From Verrucomicrobia bacterium IMCC26134 (GTDB lineage: Bacteria > Verrucomicrobiota > Verrucomicrobiia > Opitutales > Opitutaceae): a stretch of DNA of 64,000 nt. Shown here piece after piece: positions 29,872 through 63,999 of this stretch (positions are counted from its first letter, which is position 1; every line of letters begins with the position of its first letter). A program made the translations under genes and the position numbers. Under the pieces are notes generated by a model, which was not told the origin of the DNA, ran no database searches, and saw only the letters and a program-made list of their open reading frames with translations. The DNA lies in the NCBI GenBank assembly GCA_000972765.1, contig CP011265.1:2725001-2789000 (forward strand), read 5' to 3'.

Positions 29872-29891
29872 CCAAACCTTTTTCAGGCGTG

Positions 29892-32102: not shown

Positions 32103-32204
32103 TTGGCTGATAAGGGCACCCCTCCATGACTTGATCAAGCACCCTTCAGATTGTCACAATAACGCGCTGGCTAAAAGGGGTATGGCCGAGTGACTTTGCG
32201 ACCT

Positions 32205-43941: not shown

Positions 43942-44511
43942 TCAATCCTCCTCGGGGAGCATGATCGTGAGGCAGGGGCGGCCGGTCTCGTCGGGGTGGG
44001 AAATGGCCTTCAACGTGTGGAGGCGCTTCCGGCCGGTGCCGGTGATGATGACGCGGAACAGGCGCCCACCCTGCCAGACGCGGACGGGGCAGGCTCGGGA
44101 CATGTGGAGAATGTCATGCCAGACGCCGCGCCAGTCGTTCGCGTGCTTCGGGCTCGCGACCGCCTGCTCGATCAGGGCGAAGACCGCCGCCGTCATGGCG
44201 ACGTGAACGCTGGGGAAGTGCTGGGCGGAGACCTCGGCGAGGTCTCCGGTGGAGGCGTCGGCAAGGACGCCGTCGGCGATGGCCTGGGCGCGGGTGTAAA
44301 CGCTGATGACGGTAAAGCCGTCGAACGGGTGGCCGGGCTGGTGGATCTGGTCGCCGGGCTGAGGTGTAGGATCACGGGAGATGTGCGCAAGGCTGCGCCC
44401 GGAATCCGGGCACCCGCATCCTTGCGCCCCTTCGCTCTGCTTCGGGGCCACGCCTGCGGCGTGACCATCTACGTGCTGCCGCACTTCGTCACTAACGGGT
44501 ATATCAGACAT
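43942..44511 (-). CDS. DUF6573-like protein with N-terminal in-frame repeat insertion
   Basis: 189 aa from the ATG at 44511. Residues ~65-185 (FTVISVYTRAQAIADGVL, VAMTAAVFALIEQAV, WHDILHMSRACP) resemble DUF6573, a small family frequent in phages and plasmids. Residues 7-39 are encoded by a 99-nt repeat that also occurs in the phage portal gene (62686-62784), so the original start may lie downstream of it. It is divergent from the defence operon. Function unknown; mobile-element cargo. Confidence 0.65.
   Translation of the reverse strand: MSDIPVSDEVRQHVDGHAAGVAPKQSEGAQGCGCPDSGRSLAHISRDPTPQPGDQIHQPGHPFDGFTVISVYTRAQAIADGVLADASTGDLAEVSAQHFPSVHVAMTAAVFALIEQAVASPKHANDWRGVWHDILHMSRACPVRVWQGGRLFRVIITGTGRKRLHTLKAISHPDETGRPCLTIMLPEED
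44395..44493 (-). repeat. 99-nt in-frame hairpin-rich repeat, copy A
   Basis: 80 of 99 positions match copy B at 62686-62784, with no gaps. It contains hairpins GCCCGGAATCCGGGC and GGCCACGCCTGCGGCGTGAC. It is read in the same frame in both host genes, giving 33 residues (DGHAAGVAPK here). Confidence 0.85.
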
Positions 44512-44966
44512 CGGTGTATCGGGACTGTGCGCCCCAACGAGGGCGCGGATGGGAGTAGCGGGCCGCGCTACGCGGAGCCCTCAGATGGCCAAACCGAAAA
44601 AACGGCCGCCCCCGAGGGATGCCTGACGCCCAGCACCGGCTGCGCAAGGTGGAGCGCAGCGGGACGGGACGCGGGACGACGCAGTCGCCAGCGCCCGCCA
44701 GCGAGCAATACCTAGAGGCGTGGACGGGCGGAGTGCGCAGCGCGGAGACCGCCAGCCGTCGCAGGTGCTACCCTAAAGGCACCCTCTGGGCACGGCCACG
44801 CACGAAGAATTCGAGCCTCCGGCGAGCGTCGATTTTGCGGTCAACTGTTGGTTGCAACTTACGCATCTTCTCTGTGATGCTTTTGCTCTTATGTTTTGGC
44901 CCGACGATTTACCGGGGCATTGCTAAGCACGTCCTTTCGCAATTTTTCTAATAAGAGATTTTACCC
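44512..44966. other. Intergenic region upstream of defence operon, no gene seen
   Basis: 455 nt. The first ~300 nt are GC-rich and Arg/Ser-heavy in all frames without family resemblance; the last ~110 nt become AT-rich (44850-44960) and probably hold the promoter of the defence operon. No terminator or repeat stood out. Confidence 0.5.
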
Positions 44967-47933
44967 ATGAGCATTTTTGCCGCCTGCCAACCACGCATCG
45001 AAGTCCGCCAGGGCGAATTGAATGACGCGATTTTTGCGGCCGATTTTGGCGACCTCGTGGCCGGACGCGCTCCCGGCGTTTACGCCGACGCTGCGAAATT
45101 CTTTGGAAACACACACCCGGCCCAAAACTTGAAGGACGTTGCCAAGGTCGTCTTTGGTAGGCTCGCCAACACCAAGGAAACCGGTTTGACGCTCCGATTG
45201 AGCACTGGGTTTGGTGGCGGTAAAACGCACACGCTGATGACGCTGTGGCACCTTGGAAAAAACTCGGGCTCCCCGTCAGTTGGTTCTGATGTTTTGGCAT
45301 CAAGTGGCCGGCCGGCGAATGTCACCACGATTGCGGTAGATTGCGGCAAGGCCGGCGTGCCGGACTTCAACTCCTACTCCGATGCGTCGCCCAAAAGCCT
45401 TTGGGGTGAGCTTTTCTATCTTTTGGGTGAGGCAACCGCGCCAAACGGCGGCGGAGCCAAGGCACTCGCGACCCTGGGCGCGGCCGACCACCCCGAAGCA
45501 TCGCCCAACGCCAAGCAAATCGAGGCCGTTCTCCCAGCGGGGCCGATTCTCTTCCTGATCGACGAATTGGTAATCTACATGGCGAAACTGTCAGAACGTG
45601 GGCAGGGCAATCTGCTCGGCTTCCTCAATCTGCTTTCCGCCGTGGTCAGCAATCGCCCGCAAACTGTCTTGGTGGTCACCGATCCCGGCCAGCAGGCCGT
45701 TTACTCGCGGCAGTCGCAACGCATCGCCGCTGAGTTGGCTGCGTGCGCCAAAAACCTTGAGGAAATTTTCGGCCGCAAGATGACGAGCATCGATCCTATC
45801 GGTGACGAGTCGGCGAAGGTGATTGTGCGCCGCCTCTTCGGCTCCGTGGATCAGGCGGCGGCACAGTCCACCGCGCAAATCTACTCTGACCTTTACGTGC
45901 GTGTAGCCGCTGCCGATAGCCGCCTGCTGCCCACGGGAGGAGCCACTCCGCCGACCTCGCCCGGCTACAAAAAACTTATTGCCGATTGTTATCCGTTTCA
46001 CCCGCGCCTTCTCAAAACGGCCGAGGAGCGCCTCGGCGCGATGGACAGTTTCCAGAAGAGTCGCGGCGTCCTGCGGCTTTTCGCCCGCATCATCCGCGAT
46101 GTCTGGAATCAGAAAGCGGACTGCGACCTGATTTCCGCCGGTGAAGTGAACTGGTCGGACAAAGACATTAAGTCCGACTTGTTGGAACGCCTACAGCGCG
46201 ACCGTTTCACCTCCTCCATCAAGGCCGACATCGAAGGCCATGCCCTTGACATTGACGGTGGAAAACGGGGTGTCCACACGCGGGCGGCGTCGGCGTTGTT
46301 GCTCGAAAGCTTGGACACGGCCAACTCCTCCAGCGGTTTTGATGCGCCCGAGCTGACGCTGGCGATTCTCCGTCCCGATGAGGCCGGCCCTGAAGCTGGT
46401 GAGGCTCTGGATCGTCTGATTGGCGTGTGCTGGCACACCTACCCGCGTCCTGGCGGTAGCGGCGTGCAGTTCCGTTATGAGCCGAACATCACCCGTCAGA
46501 TCGACGAGATGCGGAACAAGATCGACACCGATGATGCGGCGAGCCGCGTGCGATCCGAGGTGCAGCAGTATTTCGGCGGATCCGTTTTCAAGCTCGCGGC
46601 GTGGCCGGCGCATGCCAGCCAAGTGCCGGAGTCGGCCGATCTTCAACTTGCCCTGTGCGCTAGCGAAAAGACCGCAACTGTGGTGGTGAGCTATAGCGAT
46701 GACCGCGATCCATCCGCGCCGATCCCGCGCGGTTTCAAGAACGCCCTTTTGGCTATCGCGCCCTCGGCGGTTAAATGGGCGGCGGCGGTCGAGAAGGCCC
46801 AGCGCCTGCTCGCGGCGGAAGCGATCAAGAAGGAGCACGGAACCGGTAGTGCGGGGAAACAGGTTTTGGAGCAAATCGAGCGCATCGAACCCGACCTGCG
46901 GAAACAGTTTTTCCTGCATAGCTATCGCGCTTTCGACCAAGTGGTGCTCGCCGGTCGCGGCACGCTGCAACTTGAGGAGCAATTCATGGTGCCGGAAGCT
47001 CAGGTGATGCAACGGCCCAATGGCCAAGCAGGTCTGCGCCGCTTCCTAGAAGAAAAGAAGCTGCTGCACAAATCGACCGATGCCATCGACGCCGATTTGT
47101 TTGTGACCAAAGTTCTGCCCGGCGCGACGCCTATGCCCGGCCAGCCTGATGCCTTCACGGCCAAGGCCGTCCATGAGCGCATCCTCAGTGCCCCCGGCCT
47201 GCGATTGATTCCGGACGCAGATGTGGTGCGCTCCACGATTTTGAAAGCCGTCGAGGTCGGAAAGGTGGTCGTGCGCTTTTCCGATGATCGTGCCTTTGAC
47301 GATAAAGGCAGTGTCGAGGGTGTGCCCGGTCACCGCCGCCGCTCGGCCAATAAACTTTCGTCCACCTTTGCCCTGGATGATGCCGTGTTGGTCGCGCTCT
47401 CCGGCTCCGCCTCGGCGGTTGCCTGGGTAGCAGAGGACAAACCTGACACCAAAGGAGGCGGCGGCACGCCTCCTCCGGGTGGTGGTGGCGGTCTGCCTCC
47501 GCCTCCGCCCCCGCCGCCCAGTCAAGTGACGGGCACCAGTTGGACGGCGATTCTTAACTACGCCAAAGTGCGTCCGCTGCTCACGCTTGAGCTGCGTGCT
47601 CCTACGCCGGCAGTCGCGGCCACGCTTGCCACGCTTGCCCAGCCCCTCGGCGCCGATTCCCTCACGGTGACCGTAACTATCAACGGTGACGCAAAGGATG
47701 GTGGCTCGGTTAATTTCTCCGCCGAACGCCTGAAACTGAATCATCCGACAAAGCCGCTCCAGATGGCGCAGACGCTTTTCAACTCGCTCTCCGACGGGTG
47801 CCATTACGAGGCCACGGTCACGCTTGAGTTCAAGGGCGGTCGCGCTGGTCTGCACGCGTCGTTGGAAAACCTCCAGCAGAGCGCGTCGGCTGATGTGAAA
47901 CCGACCGGTGTCTTCGACAAACCCACTGCCTAA
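44967..47933 (+). CDS. DUF499-family AAA-like ATPase of anti-phage DUF499/DUF1156 system
   Basis: 988 aa. Walker A GFGGGKTHTL (K86) and Walker B ILFLIDELVIYM (D199, E200) define a P-loop ATPase; SLWGELFYLLGEA and FGRKMTSIDPIGDES are typical of DUF499 proteins. A proline/glycine linker (about 830-852) connects to a C-terminal beta-rich domain (~855-980). DUF499 genes are known to travel with DUF1156 methylases and helicases in defence islands; both partners are downstream here. Inferred role: ATP-driven sensor or loader of the system. First gene of a plus-strand operon. Confidence 0.88.
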   Translation: MSIFAACQPRIEVRQGELNDAIFAADFGDLVAGRAPGVYADAAKFFGNTHPAQNLKDVAKVVFGRLANTKETGLTLRLSTGFGGGKTHTLMTLWHLGKNSGSPSVGSDVLASSGRPANVTTIAVDCGKAGVPDFNSYSDASPKSLWGELFYLLGEATAPNGGGAKALATLGAADHPEASPNAKQIEAVLPAGPILFLIDELVIYMAKLSERGQGNLLGFLNLLSAVVSNRPQTVLVVTDPGQQAVYSRQSQRIAAELAACAKNLEEIFGRKMTSIDPIGDESAKVIVRRLFGSVDQAAAQSTAQIYSDLYVRVAAADSRLLPTGGATPPTSPGYKKLIADCYPFHPRLLKTAEERLGAMDSFQKSRGVLRLFARIIRDVWNQKADCDLISAGEVNWSDKDIKSDLLERLQRDRFTSSIKADIEGHALDIDGGKRGVHTRAASALLLESLDTANSSSGFDAPELTLAILRPDEAGPEAGEALDRLIGVCWHTYPRPGGSGVQFRYEPNITRQIDEMRNKIDTDDAASRVRSEVQQYFGGSVFKLAAWPAHASQVPESADLQLALCASEKTATVVVSYSDDRDPSAPIPRGFKNALLAIAPSAVKWAAAVEKAQRLLAAEAIKKEHGTGSAGKQVLEQIERIEPDLRKQFFLHSYRAFDQVVLAGRGTLQLEEQFMVPEAQVMQRPNGQAGLRRFLEEKKLLHKSTDAIDADLFVTKVLPGATPMPGQPDAFTAKAVHERILSAPGLRLIPDADVVRSTILKAVEVGKVVVRFSDDRAFDDKGSVEGVPGHRRRSANKLSSTFALDDAVLVALSGSASAVAWVAEDKPDTKGGGGTPPPGGGGGLPPPPPPPPSQVTGTSWTAILNYAKVRPLLTLELRAPTPAVAATLATLAQPLGADSLTVTVTINGDAKDGGSVNFSAERLKLNHPTKPLQMAQTLFNSLSDGCHYEATVTLEFKGGRAGLHASLENLQQSASADVKPTGVFDKPTA

Positions 47934-47944
47934 GTCGATTCCCC

Positions 47945-48400
47945 ATGAAGATTCGCCAAGCCTCTTTTGCCCTGCGGGTGGTGCGCCGTCGCGCGGGCGA
48001 TGCGGCTATTCTCTATCGGCGCTCGCTCGACGAGCAACTGAACGAACGCCTGACACGCGTTACATCCATCTCTCCCTTGGCTTTCGCATCGGCTGCCGCG
48101 TTGATCCGGCAGGCAGTGCGCGAAGGCTCGCGAGAAGCGGGCGGTAAACCGTCATCCAAAACTCGCGGCACCTTGGAGCCCGGCCCTTTCTATCCACTCG
48201 ATCCGGATTGGGGTGCTCGTGTGGCGTGTTTCGCCATGATCGCTTCGGGACTACGCAACGCCGACCGGTTGCATCGCTCGGCCGGCCACCTACAGAGTTC
48301 CGATCCCGGCGAGGCCGCGTGGTGGTTTGGCCTGATGCGGAATGGCCGCCTCGTGCGCACTCGTCGGGCGCTGCGCATTTTGTTGGAGGCCGTTAAGTAA
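47945..48400 (+). CDS. Small hypothetical protein in defence operon (151 aa)
   Basis: A basic protein (KIRQASFALRVVRRRAGDAA at the start, TRRALRILLEAVK at the end) with a PDWGARVACFAMIASGLRNA centre. No catalytic motif is evident and I do not recognise the family. It is 11 nt after the DUF499 gene and 9 nt before the CD-NTase gene, so it belongs to the operon and is probably an accessory of the ATPase. Confidence 0.7.
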   Translation: MKIRQASFALRVVRRRAGDAAILYRRSLDEQLNERLTRVTSISPLAFASAAALIRQAVREGSREAGGKPSSKTRGTLEPGPFYPLDPDWGARVACFAMIASGLRNADRLHRSAGHLQSSDPGEAAWWFGLMRNGRLVRTRRALRILLEAVK

Positions 48401-48409
48401 GCCCGCGCC

Positions 48410-49273
48410 ATGCCGACGACCATCCTGCAAGGCTTCGCCAAGTTTAGCTCCAATCTGGAAATCACGGGGTTGCAGGCTCAGACGGTATCCACGCGGCAAC
48501 AGAACGTGCGAGATACGGTGGCGGCGGGATTTACGGTGCTCGATTCGTTTCTTACCGGCTCCTACAAGCGGAGCACCATGATCGCGCCGTTGAGTCAGGC
48601 GGATGTGGATTTGTTCGTTGTGTTGGATTCCAGCTACTTCACCAAATTTACACAAAAGGATCTATTGGAAGAAGTGCGCACAGCCTTGCGGAAGGAATAT
48701 CCGACTACCCCGCGTTTCTCGAAGAACGGGCAAGCTGTCACGATCACGTTTTCGGATTTTCAGGTGGATGTCGTTCCGGCGTTTTACCGGCAAGGCGGCG
48801 GTTACCTAATCCCCAATGCCAACAGTAATCAGTGGATTTCCACTGATCCGACTAAGCATGAGGCAATTTGGACAGAGCAAAACAAATGGCACCAAGGCGA
48901 CCTCGTGCCGTTTATCAAAATGATCAAATGCTGGAACCGCGAGCATAGCGGCTTCCTGCGGTCGTTTCATTTGGAAACGGTGGTTTTGGAGACGCTGCGT
49001 AATGTGACGATGAACGATTGGCCGTCGGCGGTGCGCTACTTTTTCGACAAGGCGCGCACCACGGCATGGAGCCCGATCAACGACCCCGCAGGCTACAGCG
49101 GCGATCTAACCGGCTATCTGTTCTACACGGATAAGGTCGAGGTCCAGAAGCGTGCCCAAGCGGCTTATGATCGAGCCTTGCAGGCCGAAGGTTACATCAA
49201 GGACTGTTACATTGCAGACGCTTACGGCCGTTATCGGATCATCTTTGGCGACTACTTCCCCGCTTATGGCTGA
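48410..49273 (+). CDS. CBASS-like CD-NTase (oligonucleotide cyclase)
   Basis: 287 aa. The nucleotidyltransferase signature GSYKRSTMIAPLSQADVDLF gives G50-S51 and D65-x-D67; the third acidic residue is D120 (FQVDVVPAF). A helical OAS1_C-like half follows (FIKMIKCWNREHSGFLRSFH). Such enzymes sense infection and make cyclic oligonucleotides. The next gene, overlapping by 8 nt, is a two-TM SLATT protein, the expected membrane effector, so the two form a minimal type I CBASS. No ubiquitin-like, HORMA or TRIP13 genes are present. Confidence 0.88.
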   Translation: MPTTILQGFAKFSSNLEITGLQAQTVSTRQQNVRDTVAAGFTVLDSFLTGSYKRSTMIAPLSQADVDLFVVLDSSYFTKFTQKDLLEEVRTALRKEYPTTPRFSKNGQAVTITFSDFQVDVVPAFYRQGGGYLIPNANSNQWISTDPTKHEAIWTEQNKWHQGDLVPFIKMIKCWNREHSGFLRSFHLETVVLETLRNVTMNDWPSAVRYFFDKARTTAWSPINDPAGYSGDLTGYLFYTDKVEVQKRAQAAYDRALQAEGYIKDCYIADAYGRYRIIFGDYFPAYG

Positions 49274-49781
49274 AGACTCTGAAATTCTTGCCGCAATCCG
49301 GGCAGAGGCCTCGCGCATCGAAGAAGATGCCACCTACTCGTCGTGTGGGCACTTCGAGGCGTCCAAACCGTGGGCGCATCTAAACCTTTGGATTGGGATT
49401 CCCGTGACCATCGCCGCCGCCATTGGTGGCGTGGCGGCGCTCAAAGAATTACCCACCGTTGCCTCATTGATCGCGTTTGCAGTAGCGGCGGGAACGGGCC
49501 TGATGACCTTTCTCGCACCGCGCGAGCGTCACAGCCTCCATGCGGATTGCGGGAATGCCTACTCGGCTCTGCGGAACGAGGTGCGGATGTTTCGTAATAT
49601 CGAATGCCGAGCGGGTGCCTCGATTCCCGACCTTTATGCTCGGCTACAGGACTTTTCCAAACGTCGAAATGATTTGAACGCATCGTCGCCAATCATCCCG
49701 GAGCGAGCCTTCAATAAGGCGCGCGCTGGACTTGAGGAAGGTCAGAAAACCCACCGGGTAGATCAGAATACAAAATCTTAA
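49266..49781 (+). CDS. SLATT-domain membrane effector
   Basis: 171 aa from the ATG at 49266, overlapping the CD-NTase stop by 8 nt; the longer open frame upstream is a shadow of that gene. Two TM helices (LNLWIGIPVTIAAAIGGVAA and VASLIAFAVAAGTGLMTFLA) followed by a cytoplasmic helical tail (CGNAYSALRNEVRMFRNIEC) match SLATT proteins, proposed pore-forming effectors gated by nucleotide signals. It would kill or arrest the cell once the CD-NTase product binds. Confidence 0.85.
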   Translation: MAEDSEILAAIRAEASRIEEDATYSSCGHFEASKPWAHLNLWIGIPVTIAAAIGGVAALKELPTVASLIAFAVAAGTGLMTFLAPRERHSLHADCGNAYSALRNEVRMFRNIECRAGASIPDLYARLQDFSKRRNDLNASSPIIPERAFNKARAGLEEGQKTHRVDQNTKS

Positions 49782-49785
49782 AAAC

Positions 49786-52734
49786 ATGCCTGTCACACGC
49801 CCCCGCCTCCTGATTGAAGACTGGCTACCCGCTGCCGCCATTGGTGTTGAGTGTATGCGTGAGCGCGGTAGTTCAAGTGCTCTTACACCCAATACATATC
49901 TGCATGTTTGGTGGGCGCGACGCCCCTTGGTCGCGAGTCGTGCTGCTGTGTTAGGTTCCTTGCTGCCTGCGGACTTCTCCCGCGAGCGTTTTGAGCGCCT
50001 ACTTGGTTTTGGTCGGCCTGGTTCTGAGTTGGTAAAAATACGCGCGGCTATGGATCGCGGAATGCAGATAGAGGGAGGATTCAATGCGGATCGCTCATTT
50101 AAACGTGGATTGCGCGAGGATGATCTCACCGCTGCCTACGCTGCGGCCAAAACACTATTTGGTGATCAAATTGCGGTTATTGATCCGATGTCGGGCGGAG
50201 GTTCGATTCCCCTAGAGTCGGCTCGGCTCGGATTTAAAACCTTCGCAAACGAACTAAACCCGGTCGCCTGCACGGTGCTAGAGGCGACAGTGGATTATTC
50301 ACTGAGATTCGGCCCCGAGCTTGGGACGAAGGCTAGGGCATGGGGTGCTGAGTTGGTCAAACGGATTGAAAAGCGCCTCACTCCTTTCTTCCCGAAAAAA
50401 AGTTACAGCTCCGTTCACGCATATGTTTATGTCAGAACTGTTCCCTGCCCTGATACGCAGTATGCCACCCCGCTTGTGTCTGACTGGCATCTGTTAAAAC
50501 CCAAAGGCAGTGATCGCCGTATCGTTGCGGAGCCTATCGTGGATATGAAGGCGGGGACTTGGTCAGTTCGCATACGTGAACTGGGTTCAGGGGCGGGTAA
50601 ACTAAAAGAGGCTCCAACTCCAACATGCGGCGGCGGTGATGGTGTTTCAATTTTCACCGGAGTTAAGATACCCAGCGATTATATCAAAGCTCAGGCGCAG
50701 AATGGGAAAATGGGGCACGTCCTTTACGCCATCGGCGTCAAAACCCCTAGTGGACTAGAGTTTCAACAGCCGACAGCAGAAGACATCAAAGCCCTAGCAG
50801 CTGCTGAGGCTGAACTGAAATGCGTTAGATCAGAATGGGAAGCCAAAGGCATCATACCTACGGAAAAATTCCCTGACGTTTCCAGCGATAGTCGGCCCAT
50901 TATTTACGGAATGCCAAGATGGGCTGATATGTTTAATCCCAGGCAACTCCTTTCCATTGGAGTTATTGTCGAGGAGCATAAAAAACTGCGCGCTGAAATG
51001 GTGGCGAAAGAGGGCACAGAGTGGGGGGAAGCAGCAGCAATGCTTCTGTCGCTGGTAATCGACAAGTTTATCAATCACGACTGTAGCCAAACTCGTTTTG
51101 AAAACACCCGCGCTGTCATCAAAGGGAAGATGGATCGGCACGATTACGCATTTAAAACCACCTATGCTGAAATGGCGCCATGTGGATCGGGCGGCGGTTT
51201 TGCATGGGCGATTGATAATTGCTTAGAAGGATTTGAAGGCATCGCAAAATTACCGAAAGCAGCCAACGCTAAAGCTGCGGAACTTACCCAGGGCTCAGCC
51301 ACGAATCTTGCCCATTTGGAAGATGGGTCCATTTCAGCCGTGGTTGTCGATCCGCCGTATGCGGACAATGTCCAATACTCAGAACTAGCGGACTTCTTTT
51401 ATGTATGGTTAAAACGGACCCAGGGACATCGTCGGCCCGAGTGGTTTTCCACATATTTGTGCGACCATGACGAGGAGGCGGTCGTCAACGCACAAAGGCA
51501 TCAAGAGGACACTAAAACCCTTAAATCAGCAAAAGATAGAGCGCATGTTTTCTATCAGAGTCTGATGGCAAAGGCATTTCGTGAGGCTCATCGCGTTTTA
51601 AACACGGATGGTGCTCTCACCGTTATGTTCACGCATAAAAAGCAGGAAGCATGGGAAGCCTTATTCTCGTCGCTGATCTCTGCTGGTTTTACTATTACAG
51701 CCACGTGGCCAATTAAAACCGAAAGCGAACACTCTCTCCACCAAGCCAAGAAAAACGCCGCTCAAAGCACGGTGATTCTCGTGGCGCGGAAACGGCCCGC
51801 CGGAGCGGGCACCGGTTATTACAACGATGAGTTGCGCGCGGAAATCCGCCAGAAAGCGCGAGCGACGGCGGAGCGCCTGAAAACCGAGGGACTGAACGCG
51901 GTTGACCAACTCGTGGGCTCCTTCGGCCCTGCGATGGAGGTGTATTCACGTTATGACGTGGTCAAGACGGACACCGGCGAACTGATCGCCGTGTCGGCGG
52001 CGATTGATGAAGCGAGCGAAGCGGTGAGCCAATGGCGTATCGAACAGCTTGCCGAGCGCGGCCTTGATGGCGTGGAGCCCGAGGGTAAGTTCGCGCTGCT
52101 GTGCTGGGATGTTCTGGGCGCGGCGGAGTTTCGCTACAACGAGGCCAGCCTCCTCGGCAAAGCTGTGGGTATGGAAGTGGACACCCTCATCGTCGCCGGT
52201 CTGGTGACGAAGAGCGGCGACAAGATCAAGGTGGTGCCGGTAAAAGAGCGCCGCCGTGAACGTGCCTTGGAGCAGGAAGAGGCGGATTTGTTAGGAGTCT
52301 CTCTCACGGGCAAGAAGCGGAAAAAGTCCGACACCTTAAAGGTGCATCCGAATGATCCGAGCTTCCGCACGGCGCTGGATGGATGCCATGCGCTCGCGCT
52401 GCGCTATCTCGAAGCGGGTGGCGGCGCGGGCGGTATCGGCAACGCCCGTGAATTATCCCGGCGGCAAAACTGGCAAAAGGGCAGCACGGTGGCGCGGCTG
52501 CTCGAAGCGCTCGTGCATGCCGCCCCCGAGGCGGTGCGGCATGACGACGGCAAGAAGACCAGCGCGGCGGCGCTCTTCCCGGAGTTCAGTGCCTGGCATT
52601 CACTCCTCCAACCGCTCTTCGGGGTGGAGACACCGGACTGGACGCCGCGCGTGGAGCCGCAGTTTGAACTGGCGCTGGCCGGAGGCGAGCAGGCCGAACT
52701 TGAGGAAGCCGAGGAAGAGGAAACCGAATATTAA
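49786..52734 (+). CDS. DUF1156-containing DNA methyltransferase
   Basis: 982 aa. The N-terminal DUF1156 segment RPRLLIEDWLPAAAIGVECM and YLHVWWARRPLVASRAAVLG is diagnostic. The methylase core has SAM motif I IDPMSGGGSIPLESAR (D133 on) and catalytic DPPY (residues 522-525, VVDPPYADNVQYSELADFFY), implying an amino-methyl (N6-adenine or N4-cytosine) enzyme. The ~200 C-terminal residues are Glu-rich. It probably marks host DNA for the system. It starts 5 nt after the SLATT gene and ends 6 nt before the helicase gene. Confidence 0.92.
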   Translation: MPVTRPRLLIEDWLPAAAIGVECMRERGSSSALTPNTYLHVWWARRPLVASRAAVLGSLLPADFSRERFERLLGFGRPGSELVKIRAAMDRGMQIEGGFNADRSFKRGLREDDLTAAYAAAKTLFGDQIAVIDPMSGGGSIPLESARLGFKTFANELNPVACTVLEATVDYSLRFGPELGTKARAWGAELVKRIEKRLTPFFPKKSYSSVHAYVYVRTVPCPDTQYATPLVSDWHLLKPKGSDRRIVAEPIVDMKAGTWSVRIRELGSGAGKLKEAPTPTCGGGDGVSIFTGVKIPSDYIKAQAQNGKMGHVLYAIGVKTPSGLEFQQPTAEDIKALAAAEAELKCVRSEWEAKGIIPTEKFPDVSSDSRPIIYGMPRWADMFNPRQLLSIGVIVEEHKKLRAEMVAKEGTEWGEAAAMLLSLVIDKFINHDCSQTRFENTRAVIKGKMDRHDYAFKTTYAEMAPCGSGGGFAWAIDNCLEGFEGIAKLPKAANAKAAELTQGSATNLAHLEDGSISAVVVDPPYADNVQYSELADFFYVWLKRTQGHRRPEWFSTYLCDHDEEAVVNAQRHQEDTKTLKSAKDRAHVFYQSLMAKAFREAHRVLNTDGALTVMFTHKKQEAWEALFSSLISAGFTITATWPIKTESEHSLHQAKKNAAQSTVILVARKRPAGAGTGYYNDELRAEIRQKARATAERLKTEGLNAVDQLVGSFGPAMEVYSRYDVVKTDTGELIAVSAAIDEASEAVSQWRIEQLAERGLDGVEPEGKFALLCWDVLGAAEFRYNEASLLGKAVGMEVDTLIVAGLVTKSGDKIKVVPVKERRRERALEQEEADLLGVSLTGKKRKKSDTLKVHPNDPSFRTALDGCHALALRYLEAGGGAGGIGNARELSRRQNWQKGSTVARLLEALVHAAPEAVRHDDGKKTSAAALFPEFSAWHSLLQPLFGVETPDWTPRVEPQFELALAGGEQAELEEAEEEETEY

Positions 52735-52740
52735 TCCCGT

Positions 52741-55700
52741 ATGGCCGGCCCATTGAATCGACTGCGAGATCGTAGCTGGCGGCGCTTCCTCCAGGCGCAC
52801 GACGGCGCTCTCGTGGACGAACTCTACAACCCGGCGCTGGGCGTAGCGGTGCGTTATGATCGGTGCTGCGCTTATTTCTCCAGCTCGGTGCTGGCGGTGG
52901 CGGCGCGAGGGTTTGGAGCACTGGTGCAGCACTATCTGGAAGCACCTCCGGCGTGCCCGCCGCCACCGGTGCGCCTGCTCGTGAACGAGGAAATGAGCCG
53001 CGACGATGTGCGTGCGCTCACGGAGGCACGGGATGTGGCTGTGTTGGAGCATCTGCTCCTCACGCGGTTGCGGACGCCACAGGAAGCTATCGAGCGCGAC
53101 CGGCTGGGTCTGCTCGGCTACTTGGTGAAACGCGGCTGGATCGAGGTGCGCGTCGGAGTGTTGCGCACGGGCAACGGCATCCTGCATTCAAAGTTTGGCG
53201 TGGTGCGTGATGCGGCGGGAGACGCCCTGATGTTTCGTGGCAGCGCCAACGAGTCGGCGAGCGGGCTTCAGCACAACGTCGAACACGTCGAGGTAACTAC
53301 CTCGTGGGAAGATGCGGCCGGGTATGAGCATTTCACCGGCCTGTTCGAGAAGATGTGGGATAACCAGCATCCCGCCATCGAGACCTTTGCGCTGCCGGAT
53401 GCCGTCGCGCTGAAATTGATTTCGTTCGCGCCGGACGAGCTGCCGGAGGGTGGGAGCTACGATGACGAGAAGGACAAGGTGGCGGAGCCCGCGCCCCCGC
53501 AGGCGGTGCAGCGTGCGGTCGATCCCATCGCGCGACGAAAAACGGCAATGCTGTGGCGCTACCTCGTGGAATCGCCCTATCTTCCGAACGGCCACACGGT
53601 ATGTGATGCAACGGCACTGGTGGACATGTGGCCGCATCAGCGGCGCGTCGTGGAGGAAACGTCGAGCGCATGGCCGGATGGCCGCTTGTTGTGCGACGAG
53701 GTCGGCATGGGCAAAACGATTGAGGCCATTCTCGTGCTCCGGCGGTTGCTGGCTGGCCGGGGAGTGCGCCGCGTGTTGATTCTCCTGCCGGCGGGCCTGC
53801 TTCGCCAATGGCAGTCGGAACTGCGCGAAAAGGGCGGCCTGATTGTGCCGCGCCTGCAAGGGACGTCGTCGCTTTTCTGGCCGGATGGTCGCGAGGTGGC
53901 CGTGGATGGCCTCGCCGCCGCCGTGCGCCAACCGTTGCTCATCGTAAGCCGCGAGATGGCACGCATGGAATCCAACCTCGGCATTCTCTTGGCGGCGGAG
54001 CCGTGGGACTTGGTTTTGCTGGATGAATCGCACGCGGCCCGGCGCAAGGAAGCCAAGGAGTCGGCATTCAATCAGGCCAACTTGCTATTGGATTTGTTGC
54101 GGCAACTCCAACTGCGGCAACGGGCGAGAAGCATCATGCTACTCAGCGCGACGCCGATGCAGACGCAGGCTTGGGAGCCTTGGGATTTGCTGGGCGTCCT
54201 GGGCGAAGGAGGGCCGTGGATCGCGGAGTTCAAGGCGGTGCAGCATTACTACGCGGCGATTGCGTCACTCGAAACGGGCAAATGGGAACCCGAGATTGCG
54301 CTGGCGGCGGCGGATGTGCTGCTGGCAGACGGGCGAGTGAAGGTGTTGCCCAACGGGCAAGCGCTGCCTCGGGATCGGCAAGCGCTGGCGACCAAGCTCC
54401 AGTTCGCACCCAAATCAGAACGGCCTGCTCTAGTCGCCTGGCTGCGAAAGGCGTCCCCCATCGCCCGACGCATTCACCGAAACACCCGCGACACTCTCCG
54501 CGAATACCACCGAATCGGAATCTTGGACAAAGCGCCCGCATATCGTCGGGTCGAAGACCTCACCTACGAGTATTGCACGCCGGGAGAACGGGAGATCTAC
54601 AAGGAGCTCAAAAACTACATCGAGCGGCGTTTTCAGGAACTGGAAGGGGAGCGGCCCGGAAAGGGCTTCGTGATGACGATCTATCAGCGGCGCATGGCCA
54701 GCGCGCCGTATGCGATCACGCAAAGCCTCACGCGTCGCCTAGAAGGATTGGAGCGGGTGATGAAACGCTTCGCCATCGACAGCCGATCTGCGGAAGACCT
54801 GCCGGAAGGAGTGACCGGCGACGATGTCGGCGATGCCGACGACATGGGCGAGATTTCGGCCGCCTTCCCCACCGATCCGGAACAAGCGGCGCGGGAGCAC
54901 GCCGACGTGCAAAAGCTGCTTAAGGCGCTTACCGGCCTGCATGGGCAAGACACGAAGCGGGATCGTTTCTTCTCGGTGCTTCAATCGGTGATGCAGGACG
55001 GGCGCGCTGTCCTCGTTTTCACGGAATACTCCGACACGATGAAGTATCTGCGGGATTTCCTTGTTGATCGCTACCAGGCCACGCTCGGGACGTATAGCGG
55101 CGAAGGAGGGCGGCTTTTTGAGGACGGGCGTTGGATCAACGTGACGAAGGACGTCATCACGAAACGCCTGCGAGACCGTAAACTTCGGGTGCTGCTCTGC
55201 ACGGATGCGGCGAGCGAAGGTCTAAATCTCCAAGCTGCGGGCGCGGTTATTAACTATGATCTGCCGTGGAACCCCAGCAAGGTAGAGCAACGCATCGGAC
55301 GCGTAGATCGTATCGGCCAAGCGCTCACGGAAATCCGGGTGATTAACTTCTTCTTGGAGGATAGCGTGGATCAGCGCGTTTATGAGGTGCTGCGGACGCG
55401 CTGCAAAATGTTCGAGGGCTTCATTGGCAGGATGCAACCGGTGTTGGCTAAAGCGCAAAAGATGCTCCGAGGCCAAGAGCCGGCCGATACCCGCATTCTA
55501 GAGGAGTTGGCGCAAAACCAAGATGCGGACATTCTGGCGCGGGAGACGTTCGCCCAGGATGCCGAGATGCCACCGGAGACATTGTCGCCGCTCGCGACGC
55601 GCGATTCTGTGCGGTGTGCGCTCTACCGACTGGCGGAGGGCACCCATGCCACGGTCAGCGCGGACTCAAACCGTGTCGGAGTGTCGGGGCTGGGCGACGC

Positions 55701-56559
55701 TTTTTCAGTCGGTCTCACGCAAGAGGCGCTTGAGGGAGACTCGGACGCATTGCCGCCCACGGTTACGCATCCGCGATTCCGGCAAATCGCTGAACTTCTT
55801 GAGCGAAGCGACGAATGTTTGCCGCTTGTGGTGGAAGCGGCGGCCTCGGGTGCGTTCCGGGTCGCCAAGGCGACTTGGCTGGATGGCGCGGATGGAAGAA
55901 TCGAAGTCGCGTCCTTCGATCATCTGGAATCTCTCGTTGCAGCCTGGAACGGACAGCTCGCCGATGAAGGCGCGTGGAAACTGGCGGTGGAACATCTGCG
56001 CAAGACAAGCGCGGCTGAGGCCCGTAACCATGAGGCTGAGGCCAACGTGAAACGCCGTGCGCTCGTGAGTGCGCAAATGGCATCTGCGCGGCGGCGGCTG
56101 CTCCTCGAACTTGGACGATATTTAGGCTGCCTCGACGAGGGGGTTGGCGATCTCAATGGCGTATTCTACCGTCAGATGACTCGCGACATCGTGAGCCAAA
56201 AGAGACTAGGGCGTTGCTTTCAGCTTCTCGGCCGGGCCTATCCGGAGTGGCCGGAAGACATCGTGTGGGATGTGGAAAACACGGTGGAGGCGTTGCCAGC
56301 CAATCGGCAGCAGGCGCGCTTGATCGGCAATGAGCTTGAGGCGGCGCTTTCGGATCCGCGTTGGATGCTGGCGGCGGCGATTGCCGTGGATGGACTGCCT
56401 GATGAGGCGGAACTCGCCAGCTATCGCCCGGAGGTTCGTAAGCTATTCCTCAATGCTATTGAACTGGTGACTCGTCTGAAAAAAGAGGGGTGGAAGCAGC
56501 AGGACTTCGCGAAGGCTTTGATTCAGCTTCTACAGGACGGCACGGAGGAGGGGAAATGA
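52741..56559 (+). CDS. SNF2/DEAD-like helicase with N-terminal PLD nuclease-like domain
   Basis: 1272 aa. Residues ~60-210 hold a phospholipase-D-like HxK motif (LHSKFGVVRD, H149/K151) with FRGSANESASGL. The helicase follows: Walker A DEVGMGKTIEA (K325), Walker B LLDESHAARR (D428), motif III LLSATPMQTQ, and motif VI QRIGRVDRIGQ (R851 on). Likely the DNA translocating and cutting arm of the DUF499/DUF1156 system. Only one HKD motif is seen, so dimerisation would be needed for catalysis. The next gene overlaps by ATGA. Confidence 0.9.
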   Translation: MAGPLNRLRDRSWRRFLQAHDGALVDELYNPALGVAVRYDRCCAYFSSSVLAVAARGFGALVQHYLEAPPACPPPPVRLLVNEEMSRDDVRALTEARDVAVLEHLLLTRLRTPQEAIERDRLGLLGYLVKRGWIEVRVGVLRTGNGILHSKFGVVRDAAGDALMFRGSANESASGLQHNVEHVEVTTSWEDAAGYEHFTGLFEKMWDNQHPAIETFALPDAVALKLISFAPDELPEGGSYDDEKDKVAEPAPPQAVQRAVDPIARRKTAMLWRYLVESPYLPNGHTVCDATALVDMWPHQRRVVEETSSAWPDGRLLCDEVGMGKTIEAILVLRRLLAGRGVRRVLILLPAGLLRQWQSELREKGGLIVPRLQGTSSLFWPDGREVAVDGLAAAVRQPLLIVSREMARMESNLGILLAAEPWDLVLLDESHAARRKEAKESAFNQANLLLDLLRQLQLRQRARSIMLLSATPMQTQAWEPWDLLGVLGEGGPWIAEFKAVQHYYAAIASLETGKWEPEIALAAADVLLADGRVKVLPNGQALPRDRQALATKLQFAPKSERPALVAWLRKASPIARRIHRNTRDTLREYHRIGILDKAPAYRRVEDLTYEYCTPGEREIYKELKNYIERRFQELEGERPGKGFVMTIYQRRMASAPYAITQSLTRRLEGLERVMKRFAIDSRSAEDLPEGVTGDDVGDADDMGEISAAFPTDPEQAAREHADVQKLLKALTGLHGQDTKRDRFFSVLQSVMQDGRAVLVFTEYSDTMKYLRDFLVDRYQATLGTYSGEGGRLFEDGRWINVTKDVITKRLRDRKLRVLLCTDAASEGLNLQAAGAVINYDLPWNPSKVEQRIGRVDRIGQALTEIRVINFFLEDSVDQRVYEVLRTRCKMFEGFIGRMQPVLAKAQKMLRGQEPADTRILEELAQNQDADILARETFAQDAEMPPETLSPLATRDSVRCALYRLAEGTHATVSADSNRVGVSGLGDAFSVGLTQEALEGDSDALPPTVTHPRFRQIAELLERSDECLPLVVEAAASGAFRVAKATWLDGADGRIEVASFDHLESLVAAWNGQLADEGAWKLAVEHLRKTSAAEARNHEAEANVKRRALVSAQMASARRRLLLELGRYLGCLDEGVGDLNGVFYRQMTRDIVSQKRLGRCFQLLGRAYPEWPEDIVWDVENTVEALPANRQQARLIGNELEAALSDPRWMLAAAIAVDGLPDEAELASYRPEVRKLFLNAIELVTRLKKEGWKQQDFAKALIQLLQDGTEEGK

Positions 56560-57020
56560 GCGAAGCAGCCAAAGAGCGATTTGTTTTGGATACGAACCAG
56601 ATCGTTGGCGGTGGCACGGGCTGGCGCTCGGCGGCACCGCAGGCACCAAAGAACCCCAAGTCCAAGTTGCTTGCGCATGTAGCGGCACACCAGACCGGGC
56701 TTTATTGCGGCAAAATCATTGGGGAGTATCTTGAGAAGCTGGTTGATCGCGGACACGCGCCGGAACGGGCTGCGGAAATGATCGCCTATATCATGGGTGC
56801 CTTTGAACGCGTGGCTCCCATCACCAAGGGGTCGCCGTTTCCGCCTACGGATTTGGATGATGAAGTATTTCTACTGTGCGCGATAGATGGCCAAGCTCAC
56901 TACCTCGTCACAGACGATAAGCATCTGCTTGAACTTCGGGACAAATACTCGGCCTTCAAAATCGGGTCAATTGAAGCGCTGGGGCTTGGCGAAAGGGGGA
57001 TGAAAAATGCCACAACCTAG
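56556..57020 (+). CDS. PIN-domain ribonuclease (VapC-like)
   Basis: 154 aa from the ATG at 56556 (ATGA overlap with the helicase stop). PIN acidic residues are present: D12 (FVLDTNQI), Glu in GEYLEKL, Asp/Glu in TDLDDEVFLLCAID and VTDDKHLLEL. PIN proteins cleave RNA, often as toxins. No VapB-type antitoxin is next to it, which suggests it acts as a system component under the control of the operon instead. Confidence 0.8.
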   Translation: MSEAAKERFVLDTNQIVGGGTGWRSAAPQAPKNPKSKLLAHVAAHQTGLYCGKIIGEYLEKLVDRGHAPERAAEMIAYIMGAFERVAPITKGSPFPPTDLDDEVFLLCAIDGQAHYLVTDDKHLLELRDKYSAFKIGSIEALGLGERGMKNATT

Positions 57021-57861
57021 CGAGAAATCGAAGTCCGTGGCTGGCGTGAACCAGCAATTCATCGGCTTTGAGGTCGATACGAATCTAGAAATGGAACTGC
57101 GCCATTATCTCTACCAACTCGATGTCGATATCAATATCGAGACCCAGTTGATCGCCGTTTACGGACTGCTCGCGAAGACAAAGGAGGCGGATGCGGAAAT
57201 CACCCAGGAGATTCAGGGGTGGGAGGAGCACGCGAGAACGACCAGTGATGACGACGCGCAACAGTATGCGGAGGGGCAGTGGATAGACTGCCTGCATCGG
57301 GCGACTTATCATGGTGCTGCGCATAGCATGGCGGCGCTAGGGATGCTGGCACCGCTGCTCGAAACCGTGTTTCACCAATATCTGCGGGCGATCTGCCAGA
57401 AGCTCACGGAGCTTGGCGAGCCGATTGGAACTCACGAGAGGTGGGCGCGTCCGTCTCGGAAGGCATATGATTGCCACTACGTGTGGCGGAACGGCGGGTT
57501 TGATAAAGACGTGGTTTCAGGAATTGGCCAGATGGTGGAAGCTCTTGATATGGCGAGGTGTCTTCCTGCGGATTTTCAGCAGGTGCTGAGCGCGTTGATC
57601 GAGTATCGGAACAAGATGTTTCACAACGGATTCGAGTGGCCGATGGAGGAGCGTCGAGACTTTGAGCAAAGGCTCCAGGAAAAAGGATTTCCAACCGAGT
57701 GGTTTACTAAAGCGACCTCGGGGGATGACCCGGTCGTTTTCTACATGTCGGAAACCATGATTCGTAAGGTCATGGAGACGATTGACGGCGTTCTCGACGG
57801 GATCGCCGGCTACACGCGAGACCGCGTGACACCCTTACGCCTAAAGCGGGAATACCCATGA
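57007..57861 (+). CDS. HEPN-like protein with Rx4H motif
   Basis: 284 aa, helical and acidic, no TM. Near the C-terminus LIEYRNKMFHNGFEW contains Arg-x4-His, the HEPN RNase signature (RNKMFH). The upstream region (LIAVYGLLAKTKEADAEI, GAAHSMAALGMLAPLLETVF) is helical as expected. Overlaps the PIN gene by 14 nt and the DUF3800 gene by 4 nt. It may cleave RNA upon activation, or be a non-catalytic HEPN partner. Family not identified more precisely. Confidence 0.6.
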   Translation: MPQPSEKSKSVAGVNQQFIGFEVDTNLEMELRHYLYQLDVDINIETQLIAVYGLLAKTKEADAEITQEIQGWEEHARTTSDDDAQQYAEGQWIDCLHRATYHGAAHSMAALGMLAPLLETVFHQYLRAICQKLTELGEPIGTHERWARPSRKAYDCHYVWRNGGFDKDVVSGIGQMVEALDMARCLPADFQQVLSALIEYRNKMFHNGFEWPMEERRDFEQRLQEKGFPTEWFTKATSGDDPVVFYMSETMIRKVMETIDGVLDGIAGYTRDRVTPLRLKREYP

Positions 57862-58559
57862 AGCCGATCTATAACCTCTACTGCGACGAGAGCTGCCACC
57901 TTGAACATGACCACCAAAAGGCGATGGTGCTGGGTGTGGTGTGGTGCCCAGAAGATAAGGCGCGAGCCATCGCGGAGCGATTGCGCGAGATCAAACGCGA
58001 CCACAAAATGCCTTCCACATTTGAGGCGAAGTGGACGAAGGTTTCACCGGCGAAGGTCGATTACTACCTGGCGGTCATCGACTATTTTTTTGATGCCGAT
58101 GATCTCCATTACCGGGGGCTAGTCGTGCCCGACAAATCGAAGCTCGCGCACGAGAAGTTCGGGCAGGATCACGATACTTGGTATTACAAGATGTATTTCC
58201 AGCTCCTGAGCGTTCTCCTAAGCCCGGAGGCGCACTACCGGATTTATTTGGACATCAAGGATACCGTCGGCGGCGCTAAAGTGGAGAAGCTCCACGATGT
58301 GCTTTGCAATAGCTGCTATGATTTCGACCGGCAAATTATCGAACGGGTGCAAACGGTGCGGAGTCACGAAATCGAGCAACTCCAAGTGTGCGACCTTCTC
58401 TCTGGTGCCCTGTCTTACGTTCATCGCGGGTTGGCCGGAAGCGTGGCCAAGCAACAATTGATTGAGCGGATCAAGCACCGGTCGGGTTTGCAGCTCACGC
58501 GGAGCACTTTGCTACGGGCGCGGAAGTTTAATTTGTTTTGCTGGGAGCCGGGCACATGA
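57858..58559 (+). CDS. DUF3800-family protein
   Basis: 233 aa. YNLYCDESCHLEHDH (Asp-Glu-Ser near the N-terminus), FEAKWTKVS, YRIYLDIKDT and LQVCDLLSGALSY form the RNase-H-like acidic constellation of DUF3800 proteins, common in defence islands and mobile elements. Overlaps its neighbours on both sides by ATGA. Possible nuclease; function unproven for the family. Confidence 0.85.
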   Translation: MKPIYNLYCDESCHLEHDHQKAMVLGVVWCPEDKARAIAERLREIKRDHKMPSTFEAKWTKVSPAKVDYYLAVIDYFFDADDLHYRGLVVPDKSKLAHEKFGQDHDTWYYKMYFQLLSVLLSPEAHYRIYLDIKDTVGGAKVEKLHDVLCNSCYDFDRQIIERVQTVRSHEIEQLQVCDLLSGALSYVHRGLAGSVAKQQLIERIKHRSGLQLTRSTLLRARKFNLFCWEPGT

Positions 58560-59059
58560 GCGAGAATCTACCTGATTTCGCGGAGGTGAACGATTTTCCC
58601 GGTGAGGACTTCGTCGCACGATGGAAAACGTATCTCGAAGCGGTTTACGCCATCTATCTTCGGGAGGTTGCGCACGGGGGACTTACTTTTCAAAGCCTTC
58701 CGGTGCGGTGTCGCTTCATTCCGGAGACGTTCGGGAAGCATTATGCTTTTTGGCACATCATGCAGGAAGGACGGATTGAGGATGATCGAACGGCCGATCT
58801 CGAGCGCTGCAAGCGGGTGCGGTGGATCGCTTGGGTGATAGCGGCGGCGGAGGCCGGGGATGTGCGCGTGAAAGTATTTCCGCAGTTGAAACGCGGCACC
58901 GAACAGCCCTGGGCCTTATGGCTTGAGGACACGGGCTACGTGGTGATCCTAGTCGAACGTAATGGCTATTTCCTGCTTCGGACAGCATTCCCTGTCACGT
59001 ATCGGAACAAGGCTGAAGAGCTGCGGCGCGACTGGTTGCGCCATACCCAAGGGAGATAA
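58556..59059 (+). CDS. Barnase/EndoU/RelE-fold nuclease-like protein
   Basis: 167 aa from the ATG at 58556 (ATGA overlap). The C-terminal half (YVVILVERNGYFLLRTAFPV, then EELRRDWLRHTQG) resembles the phage Barnase-EndoU-ColicinE5/D-RelE-like nuclease group, where a hydrophobic strand carries the YFLLxTAxP motif. The N-terminal half (AVYAIYLREVAHGGLTFQSL) looks like an adaptor. Last gene of the defence operon; downstream the strand switches to phage genes. Assignment is from motif shape only. Confidence 0.6.
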   Translation: MSENLPDFAEVNDFPGEDFVARWKTYLEAVYAIYLREVAHGGLTFQSLPVRCRFIPETFGKHYAFWHIMQEGRIEDDRTADLERCKRVRWIAWVIAAAEAGDVRVKVFPQLKRGTEQPWALWLEDTGYVVILVERNGYFLLRTAFPVTYRNKAEELRRDWLRHTQGR

Positions 59060-62391: not shown

Positions 62392-63999
62392 TCAATCCGG
62401 CGACTGGTAGCTGGTCTTGGGCACGCGGATCAAAACGCTGCGGCAGTTGTAGTGCGCGGGTGGTGGCGAAAACCAACCGTCCCCCCAGCGGCGACCGTGA
62501 CGGCCTTGGCAAAGGGGCGTGGTGCGGTTGTCGAGGGTCGCATCCCAAACGAGGTATTCGTCGGCGGCGTTGGCTTCGGCGACCTGTTGCGGAAACGCCG
62601 CCTGCGCGGCGGCTTGGCGTGTGGAGAGTTCCTGCGCACTTTCGGACGAAGCCGAAAGTGCGTCGGCGTCTGTTTGCGAGTGCTCGCGCCCGCAAGACGG
62701 GCACCCGCGATCACTCGCCCCTCCGCGAAGCTCCGGGGCCACGCCTGCGGCGCGACCATCTCCGCGCTGCCGCGCTACGTCACTCGTGGCGTCGATTGGG
62801 ACGCCACAACCGCACGCGCACGACTTGGCGTCGGCGGGGGCTGGTTGCGGTTCCGTCGGCACGGCCTGAGCAACGGGTTTGGCGGGCTTGAAAAGCGCTT
62901 CGCCCGCGTCCGGCGTCGGAACCTTGTGCCGCTCGTAGAGGTATTGGAGCGAGACGGGCAGGCCCATTTCGACGAATAGGGTTTTGTCGCGGGCGGCCAT
63001 GTCTTGCTCGCGACCGGGGCGCGAAATCTCGACCTCAACGAAGGGGATTTCTTCGGCGCTGCCCCAGTTGAGCGCGATCAACTGCGGGATGAGCTGATCG
63101 TTGAGGACGGCGACGATGAACTCGGCGTAGGTCTCGAAAAGATCCAGCTCGACCTCGCGATGAACTTCGCTGGCGGCGCGGCTGCCTTGGCCGTTGTGTT
63201 CAACGGAGAGGTTCTGACCGAGAAGCATGATGTCGCACGCGCGGTCGGCGATGCCCATGAGGCGTTCGCTGGGATCGTTCGGGCCGGCGACGCCGGGCGT
63301 GGTGCCTTGGAGAATTTGCAGATTCGTTCCCTGAGGAAACGCACCCCATGAGGCGGTGCCCATGTTGCGGAGCGCGGCGGTGATGGCGTCGATTTCGGAT
63401 TGGGTGGCGGTGGTCGGGTAGTTGGCCCAACGCAAGGGCGTGCCGAAGAGTTCGGCCTTCTGCACCAACCATTCCCAGCCGAGCATGTGACCAAGCCAGA
63501 GCGGAGCCAGGGCGCGGAGCTGCGCGGCCTCGCCGAGCGCGCCGGATTTCGACTGGAAAACGCCGGTCAGGAATTTACCGGGGTGTTTGGCGAAGGGAGT
63601 GAGCGTAGCGAACGCGGCGGGATCGAGGCGGAGCGCGAGGGTGCCGTCGGTGTTGATGCCGAGGTAACGGGACGGCACTCGGCGGAAGCCGACCGGGACG
63701 ACGAAACCCGTGGTGTCGGTCGTCCAGTCGATCTCGACCACAGACAGGCCGCGTGCGACGGCGTCCATGAGTTCGTAAACGGCGGAGCCGAGCGGGGCGC
63801 GCGTGGTGTCAACGTAGCCGCGTTGCAAGTGGAGCGCGGACTCGACGAAGGCTGCTTTCTCCTGAGCGGAAGCGGACGGCTTGCCGTTCTTCGGGGTGAA
63901 GGGCTGCACGTTGAGCGGCAGCTTGCGGATGGCGTTCTTGATCTTTTGGAGATTGGCGCGGAGGCGCGGCCAAGTGTCCTCCATCAGGTTGAATAGATC
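62392..63999 (-). CDS. Mu gp29-like (DUF935) phage portal fused to head-morphogenesis C-terminus, 5' truncated by window edge
   Basis: The frame is open to the window end (DLFNL precedes the ATG at 63984), so the true start is outside. Residues 1-390 (from 63984) are a DUF935 portal: ALHLQRGYVDTTRAPLGSAV, VSRYLGINTDG-like region, LMGIADRACDIMLLGQNLSV. Then a 33-residue insertion encoded by the 99-nt repeat, and a C-terminal segment (EYLVWDATLDNRTTPLCQGR, then PPAHYNCRSVLIRV) that is the conserved end of SPP1-gp7/Mu-gpF head-morphogenesis proteins. The rest of that protein is missing, so this is either a deletion fusion or a natural one. Confidence 0.82.
   Translation of the reverse strand, partial: DLFNLMEDTWPRLRANLQKIKNAIRKLPLNVQPFTPKNGKPSASAQEKAAFVESALHLQRGYVDTTRAPLGSAVYELMDAVARGLSVVEIDWTTDTTGFVVPVGFRRVPSRYLGINTDGTLALRLDPAAFATLTPFAKHPGKFLTGVFQSKSGALGEAAQLRALAPLWLGHMLGWEWLVQKAELFGTPLRWANYPTTATQSEIDAITAALRNMGTASWGAFPQGTNLQILQGTTPGVAGPNDPSERLMGIADRACDIMLLGQNLSVEHNGQGSRAASEVHREVELDLFETYAEFIVAVLNDQLIPQLIALNWGSAEEIPFVEVEISRPGREQDMAARDKTLFVEMGLPVSLQYLYERHKVPTPDAGEALFKPAKPVAQAVPTEPQPAPADAKSCACGCGVPIDATSDVARQRGDGRAAGVAPELRGGASDRGCPSCGREHSQTDADALSASSESAQELSTRQAAAQAAFPQQVAEANAADEYLVWDATLDNRTTPLCQGRHGRRWGDGWFSPPPAHYNCRSVLIRVPKTSYQSPD
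62686..62784 (-). repeat. 99-nt in-frame hairpin-rich repeat, copy B (inside portal gene)
   Basis: Matches copy A (44395-44493) at 80 of 99 positions without gaps. Hairpins GCCCGCAAGACGGGC and GGCCACGCCTGCGGCGCGACC are conserved in shape. It is read in the same frame as copy A (DGRAAGVAPE here), placed between the portal and head-morphogenesis parts. Confidence 0.85.

Follow-up and report, generated by a model that had tools for sequence, protein, structure and literature searches.

Small repeats that insert frequently in frame into protein genes have so far been treated as a peculiarity of Rickettsia. The Rickettsia palindromic elements (RPEs) measure about 150 bp and fall into ten families, and the 2024 review that describes them regards in-frame repeats in proteins outside Rickettsia as no more than conceivable (PMC10969869). 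Among other palindromic repeats, the GTAG and CGTC REPs are units of 20–40 bp; Opitutus terrae is rich in the GTAG type, and intragenic units have been listed (Di Nocera et al. 2013, PMC3733652). Prokaryotic MITEs (ERIC, RUP, Correia/NEMIS, BOX) are non-autonomous elements of 70–300 bp that can fuse in frame with host ORFs.

We describe here a segment of about 105 nt that resembles each of these systems in part. Like the RPEs, it is a small dispersed palindromic element that lies in frame in unrelated protein genes, adds a few dozen residues and has no known mobiliser. Unlike them, it is found in a different phylum, packs four separate hairpins into its ~105 nt, is spread over a whole order and uses a defined NAR target with base replacement; moreover, the frame bias is shown here against intergenic copies, and the hosts include phage and transposase genes. 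By analogy, RPEs are the closest match in behaviour, and we would call the element RPE-like rather than an RPE. All model-confirmed named copies belong to Verrucomicrobiota, which speaks against homology with the RPE families, although no direct comparison with RPE sequences was made. With REPs, REPINs and GTAG- or CGTC-tagged repeats (PMC3733652, PMC3116915) the element shares its shortness, palindromic and folded nature, many copies, occasional intragenic units and GNAG motifs. REPs, however, are single hairpins and the GTAG REPs are paired with RAYT genes, whereas the element is a unit of four hairpins in fixed order that is not consistently linked to RAYT genes; one of its hairpins might still overlap in part with an O. 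terrae REP family. It is non-autonomous as MITEs are, but lacks terminal inverted repeats and, in empty-site comparisons, target-site duplication.

Two copies in one genome

The stretch of DNA that was analysed (the window) comprises 64,000 nt of the genome of Verrucomicrobia bacterium IMCC26134 (CP011265.1, 2,725,001–2,789,000). The first-pass annotation, made from the sequence alone, had claimed two gap-free copies of 99 nt on the minus strand, 80/99 identical and in the same phase, each adding 33 residues. The copies, their coordinates (44395–44493 and 62686–62784), identity and phase all held; the best identity among 20,000 mononucleotide shuffles of the 99-nt pair was 49/99. A reading frame is common to both, with the shared peptide DxxRQxxDGxAAGVAP. 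The length had to be corrected: comparison with other copies and with empty sites makes the true element about 105 nt, with some 12 nt beyond the 99-nt outline, revised ends at about 44384–44488 and 62674–62779, and a net insertion of 105 nt (35 codons) in each gene. The fourth hairpin closes only when these ~12 outside nucleotides are included. The copies and their host genes are as follows.

62674..62779, minus strand: element copy A, in the Mu-like portal gene, third base of a Glu codon replaced; covariance-model hit 62674–62781, 92.0 bits; empty homologue L105
62780..62781, minus strand: G-A of the target triplet GA/A beside copy A, belonging to the Glu codon of ...DATS-E-SS... in the empty portal
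62392..63984, minus strand: host gene, Mu-like portal; PF06074 at residues 1–354, Phage_Mu_F (PF04233) C-terminus at 456–519, element between the two domains
44384..44488, minus strand: element copy B, at codon 3 of the original DUF6573 gene; covariance-model hit 44383–44490, 93.7 bits; empty homologues ATGCGTGAC(A/C)TCTCC in L072 and L088
43942..44511, minus strand: host gene, DUF6573 protein; PF20213 at residues 64–189, element in the N-terminal extension

Within this genome BLAST finds copies A and B only. Taken alone this suggested a chance pair, a reading that we reject, as a covariance model recovers a third copy at 227110–227206 (63 bits), together with a doubtful fourth, and a family that extends through the order.

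Distribution in Opitutales

The ~105-nt four-hairpin segment is a dispersed family across the order Opitutales. BLAST with copy A gives matches in 122 of 252 genomes of the family, the weakest of them short. The covariance model R1, which was built from 16 copies and whose E-values are rough, has hits in 87 of 373 genomes of the order and in 35 of 100 genera, representing at least eight families. This order-wide scan scored at most ten hits per genome, a maximum that several genomes reached; in nine well-scored genomes R1 gives from 2 to at least 17 copies each. A pattern scan of named genomes places the element in Opitutaceae, Puniceicoccaceae and other Opitutales or Verrucomicrobiota, including the cultured Geminisphaera colitermitum TAV2. 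The list of taxa from that scan is incomplete; within it, pattern scan and covariance model together gave no named, confirmed copy outside Verrucomicrobiota. Some MAG contigs are possibly misbinned. The covariance model did not confirm the pattern hits obtained in records of Archangiaceae, Lachnospiraceae, Prevotella, Acidobacteria and Chthoniobacter. Among annotated phage and plasmid records none matches the element, and a search of the literature for its sequence motifs returned nothing relevant.

In one genus, the element lies within a tandemly doubled unit with a period of 195–197 nt and similar flanks in three genomes (L149 5197–5490, L151 4647–4943, L152 4899–5192).

Hairpin architecture

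Four hairpins occur in a fixed order and are conserved and covarying across copies. In copy A they are placed as follows.

62764..62775, minus strand: hairpin 1, GCGC-GGCA-GCGC with GNA/GNA on its flanks (helix 1)
62739..62755, minus strand: hairpin 2, with the strongest covariation among the confidently paired helices (helix 2)
62718..62738, minus strand: hairpin 3, CCCC-GNA-GC..GC-GNA-GGGG (helix 3)
62676..62717, minus strand: hairpin 4, a long stem with a GGGT bulge and a GCCC/GGGC tip, its 3' part beyond the 99-nt outline (helices 4 and 5)

In the seed alignment, which was not fitted to any model, 85% of pair cells are standard versus 35–48% when the partners are slid, and both sides have changed in 16 of 29 pairs. 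Across 133 distinct copies the paired cells amount to 85.6% (34–52% for slid controls), with double changes in 24 of the 29 pairs; this larger alignment was fitted to the covariance model, and the unfitted seed gives the same picture. The folding energy of single copies (z −4.1 for one, −0.4 for the other) is not decisive, and it is the covariation across copies that decides the matter. The consensus of the aligned copies reads (G)ACGgAGCGCGgcAGCGCGgAGATGGtC..GCCGcaGGC..gGCCCCGgAGC...GCGnAGGGGtGA....GCGGGTGCCC..GGGC.....ACAA, and element length is mostly 84–115 nt. No terminal inverted repeats are present, the conserved ends CGGAG... and ...ACAA not being inverted repeats of each other.

Hairpins 1 and 3 have a common design, C-GNA-GC...GC-GNA-G, which amounts to a symmetric internal loop and in which sheared G-A pairs can be envisaged; the loop of hairpin 1 is usually GNNA. 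Motifs of the GNA/GNA type are stable in RNA and in single-stranded DNA alike, and the data therefore cannot tell which chemistry the active strand has.

Such an architecture could also be that of a functional structured RNA or a regulatory element, present in genes only incidentally. The strong covariation and the conserved unpaired motifs speak for this. However, there is no orientation bias with respect to neighbouring genes, hosts and positions are varied, copy number is variable and the element is present or absent in near-identical genes, all of which make the explanation very improbable. Against the Rfam 15 covariance models, no family match coincides with the element, the sole sub-threshold hit touching the edge of one copy.

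One copy (L157 9684–9827) is 144 nt long and has an extra palindromic stretch within hairpin 3, which may reflect another palindrome inserted into the element.

Insertion site

For the empty-site comparisons, the flanks of each element were joined by script and then compared with homologues. About fifteen pairs of occupied and empty loci were obtained, nearly all of the NAR type, with the portal in addition. The occupied site reads N-A-[CGnAG ... ACA]-A-N and the empty site N-A-R-N, the target triplet usually being GAG or GAA. In most pairs the third base is G when empty and A when occupied; the element therefore normally brings its own last A, which replaces one base. One such pair is GTG-GAG-CGC in four genomes versus GTG-GAC...CAA-CGC when occupied, and further empty targets are AAG, from a Vsr-like gene, and CAG, from a non-coding region that is conserved across four genomes. 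A few occupied sites retain the target base (G or C), and two pairs involve one further base. None of the empty-site pairs has a target-site duplication. An NAR target with replacement of the third base and without duplication is thus what the comparison of empty sites shows; it is read off that comparison and not from new insertions.

Insertions in the portal and DUF6573 genes

A second prophage in the same genome carries a portal without the segment, 97% identical over residues 1–402 and 90% over 445–530, and is one of at least nine element-free portals. Three portals have the element, at three different codons of the linker: at the Glu codon of DATS-E-SS in the window, ~30 codons upstream of that site, after LFIPY, in genome G115, and splitting the CACGC-VPIDA motif in genome G042. 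These are therefore independent insertions into the portal/Mu-F linker. The elements of G115 and the window are 93% identical despite their different insertion codons, which probably reflects recent movement from a common source. We expect that 35 extra residues in this linker do little harm.

Just downstream of copy A, the portal gene of the window contains one more palindrome.

62636..62661, no strand assigned: perfect 10-bp inverted repeat (11 bp with the flanking base)

It lies in an extra stretch of ~8 codons that is missing from the empty portals, and might be a further small insertion or have arisen as a side effect of the first.

In the DUF6573 gene, the homologues of G042 and G115 that lack the element start ATG CGT GAC (CTC or ATC) TCC, whereas in the window and in genome G212 the element follows the GA of the third codon. 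The latter two copies share their site and 98% of their sequence, and hence represent one insertion. G212 retains the original ATG, which the window has lost; its frame there begins further upstream.

The region upstream of and within this gene (window 43976–44780 and L007 1–1100) is a hot spot, with four elements within 750 bp in G215, one in G042 and two in G107. The window has most of the empty sites that match these elements.

An alternative is that the segment is a protein domain shared ancestrally by the portal and DUF6573 proteins, the DNA likeness then following from protein conservation. In its favour, both copies share a frame and a common core. Several lines of evidence oppose it. 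First of all, element-free homologues of both genes exist, and the segment is not ancestral to either. Second, the majority of copies are not in genes. Third, base pairs covary. Finally, related portals carry the element at different codons. The element-free portals and the intergenic copies already rule this explanation out.

Other host genes

Most copies lie outside genes, in either orientation, and the genes that do contain one are diverse. In an IS91-type Y2 transposase and its partner tyrosine integrase, three in-frame elements are found in two neighbouring copies of the unit; they sit in conserved parts of the proteins, and the frames are kept open in the tandem copies. In-frame copies are also present in genes for an RsmB/F-type methyltransferase, a DnaG-like primase, PDDEXK_3 and RHS proteins, and an EPSP synthase gene holds a copy that is antisense yet in frame. 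Further hosts are IS110 transposases and a KilA-N protein. Frameshifted copies occur in Vsr-like genes and in the IS91 copies of G105.

Reading frame, orientation and encoded peptide

For the frame test, a single codon was put in place of each element before gene calling, so that ORFs existing only through an in-frame insert would not be counted. The gene caller was a home-made codon scorer with codon models trained per G+C class. Among 199 distinct copies, 27 have a coding signal on both sides and are counted as intragenic. Their length is divisible by three in 21 cases, compared with 66 of 153 copies outside genes (43%; Fisher p=0.0008); six are not a multiple of three. A smaller, overlapping first set gave 13/15 versus 43/106. 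Intragenic copies are oriented 22 sense to 5 antisense (p=0.0015), whereas those between genes have no orientation bias (29:37). The frame and orientation tests treat copies as independent, though they are partly related.

In-frame intragenic copies keep the host frame open and add about 30–36 residues. The frame bias looks like selection after insertion, since copies outside genes are of all lengths. The sense bias is not accounted for by stops, of which antisense frames have fewer than sense frames. The sense peptide is hydrophilic (mean GRAVY −1.05 versus −0.13 to −0.39 in antisense frames), which fits with selection on the protein. Only 47% of copies are open in the element's own reading frame; the element is therefore not built for coding. 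The target triplet is in codon register in 22 of the 27 intragenic copies; as, within the genes of the window, 67% of GAR triplets already are in-frame Glu codons, the common phase is mostly a target preference.

Could the inserts be removed or skipped, as a self-splicing RNA, an intein-like peptide or by translational bypass? If the insert is retained, the full-length portal would carry DVARQRGDGRAAGVAP. Some inserts sit in conserved transposase and integrase regions, which would be expected to be sensitive, in keeping with removal. However, an insert that is excised or bypassed could have any length, yet the bias towards multiples of three is there; out-of-frame copies occur; group I and II introns and inteins are all larger than ~105 nt; and Rfam contains no match. 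Removal or bypass is thus very unlikely. The inserts are most probably translated and not removed from the mRNA, an inference from the length bias without transcript or peptide data.

Search for a mobilising enzyme

No mobilising enzyme was identified among the families tested. Reverse transcriptase (PF00078), IS110 (PF02371) and Y2/IS91 (PF04986) are present in 4, 5 and 3 of 12 copy-bearing genomes, respectively, and were each rejected as the mobiliser, being missing from most of the genomes tested. Y1/RAYT (PF01797) is present in 11 of 12 genomes of a nearly identical set. Genome G356, 99% complete and with at least eight copies, lacks all four families.

The more serious rival is a REP/REPIN-type repeat moved by a RAYT (Y1 tyrosine transposase), which would recognise GNAG tags by the hairpins and act through a folded single-stranded DNA intermediate. 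GNAG motifs on the hairpin flanks, the abundance of GTAG REPs in O. terrae, with REPs inside genes (Di Nocera 2013, PMC3733652), and RAYT-type genes common in these genomes all speak for it. Against it, the element has four hairpins over ~105 nt and not one of 20–40 bp, only 3 clear elements were found in ~100 kb around 32 Y1 loci (not all Y1 loci were covered), and G356 has its copies without any Y1 gene. In the window's own genome, three tandem, nearly identical Y1 (RAYT-type) genes (G000:C1:723729-725730, L032–L034) have between them a GGCCAGACCCCTTTGGCTTGGCC repeat, which differs from the four-hairpin element. We regard this explanation as unlikely. A CAGACCCCTTT repeat similar to the one between these Y1 genes is seen at 29822–29878 of the window.

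A longer, autonomous version was not seen: matches to the left-end motif are mostly known full copies, and none is split around a gene, a few matches excepted from individual inspection. Reversed patterns, as a control, gave 0 matches.

Proposed mechanism and significance

We consider it very likely that we are dealing with one copy of a mobile, non-autonomous palindromic element of ~105 nt, which has spread through Opitutales by the route proposed here, whose steps are inferred. The mobile form would be a folded single strand, DNA or RNA, whose hairpins and GNA/GNA internal loops would be recognised by an enzyme supplied in trans. Insertion itself would ignore the reading frame, and intragenic copies would survive where they leave the frame open and the host protein tolerates the extra peptide. 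In the portal, the linker joining the portal and Mu-F-like domains would be hit repeatedly in this way.

The first-pass annotation had likened the two copies to RPEs that insert in frame, and had named a nucleotide profile search, stem covariation, insertion-free homologues and in-frame bias as ways to check this. All came out favourably: the element is found across the order, the stems it had called conserved do covary (as four hairpins), portal and DUF6573 genes without the insertion exist, and a frame bias is present relative to non-genic copies. The likeness is supported as an analogy in behaviour, not as membership, and the shared codon phase, though real, is largely explained by the GAR target triplet.

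What is new is a case that is independent of Rickettsia, extends over a whole order and comes with empty sites, a defined target triplet, a covariance model and a phage gene in which insertion has occurred repeatedly. Two questions can now be put to the test, namely the identity of the enzyme that moves such elements, and whether proteins gain new sequence through them. There is also a warning, in that annotated Opitutales proteins can carry 30–36-residue segments of mobile-DNA origin. A bolder reading, which we think improbable, is that the element is adapted to genes, its GAR target, for the most part a Glu codon, giving codon register and its sense strand encoding a soluble, linker-like peptide, and that it is moved by an unrecognised type of enzyme. 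If this were true, a mobile DNA family would time and again supply proteins with linkers throughout a bacterial order and its phages.

Other features of the window

A defence island at 44967–59059 contains an HmaC/DUF499 ATPase, DUF7680, a CBASS-type SMODS cyclase (48410–49273), a DUF1156/HmaB methylase, a PLD-SNF2 helicase and PDC-M04A/B genes; we read it as an Hma-like system with an embedded oligonucleotide cyclase. At 29892–32138, the window encodes a protein of 23-residue BspA-type leucine-rich repeats, with a DNA period of 69 nt, 23 copies and 81% matches.
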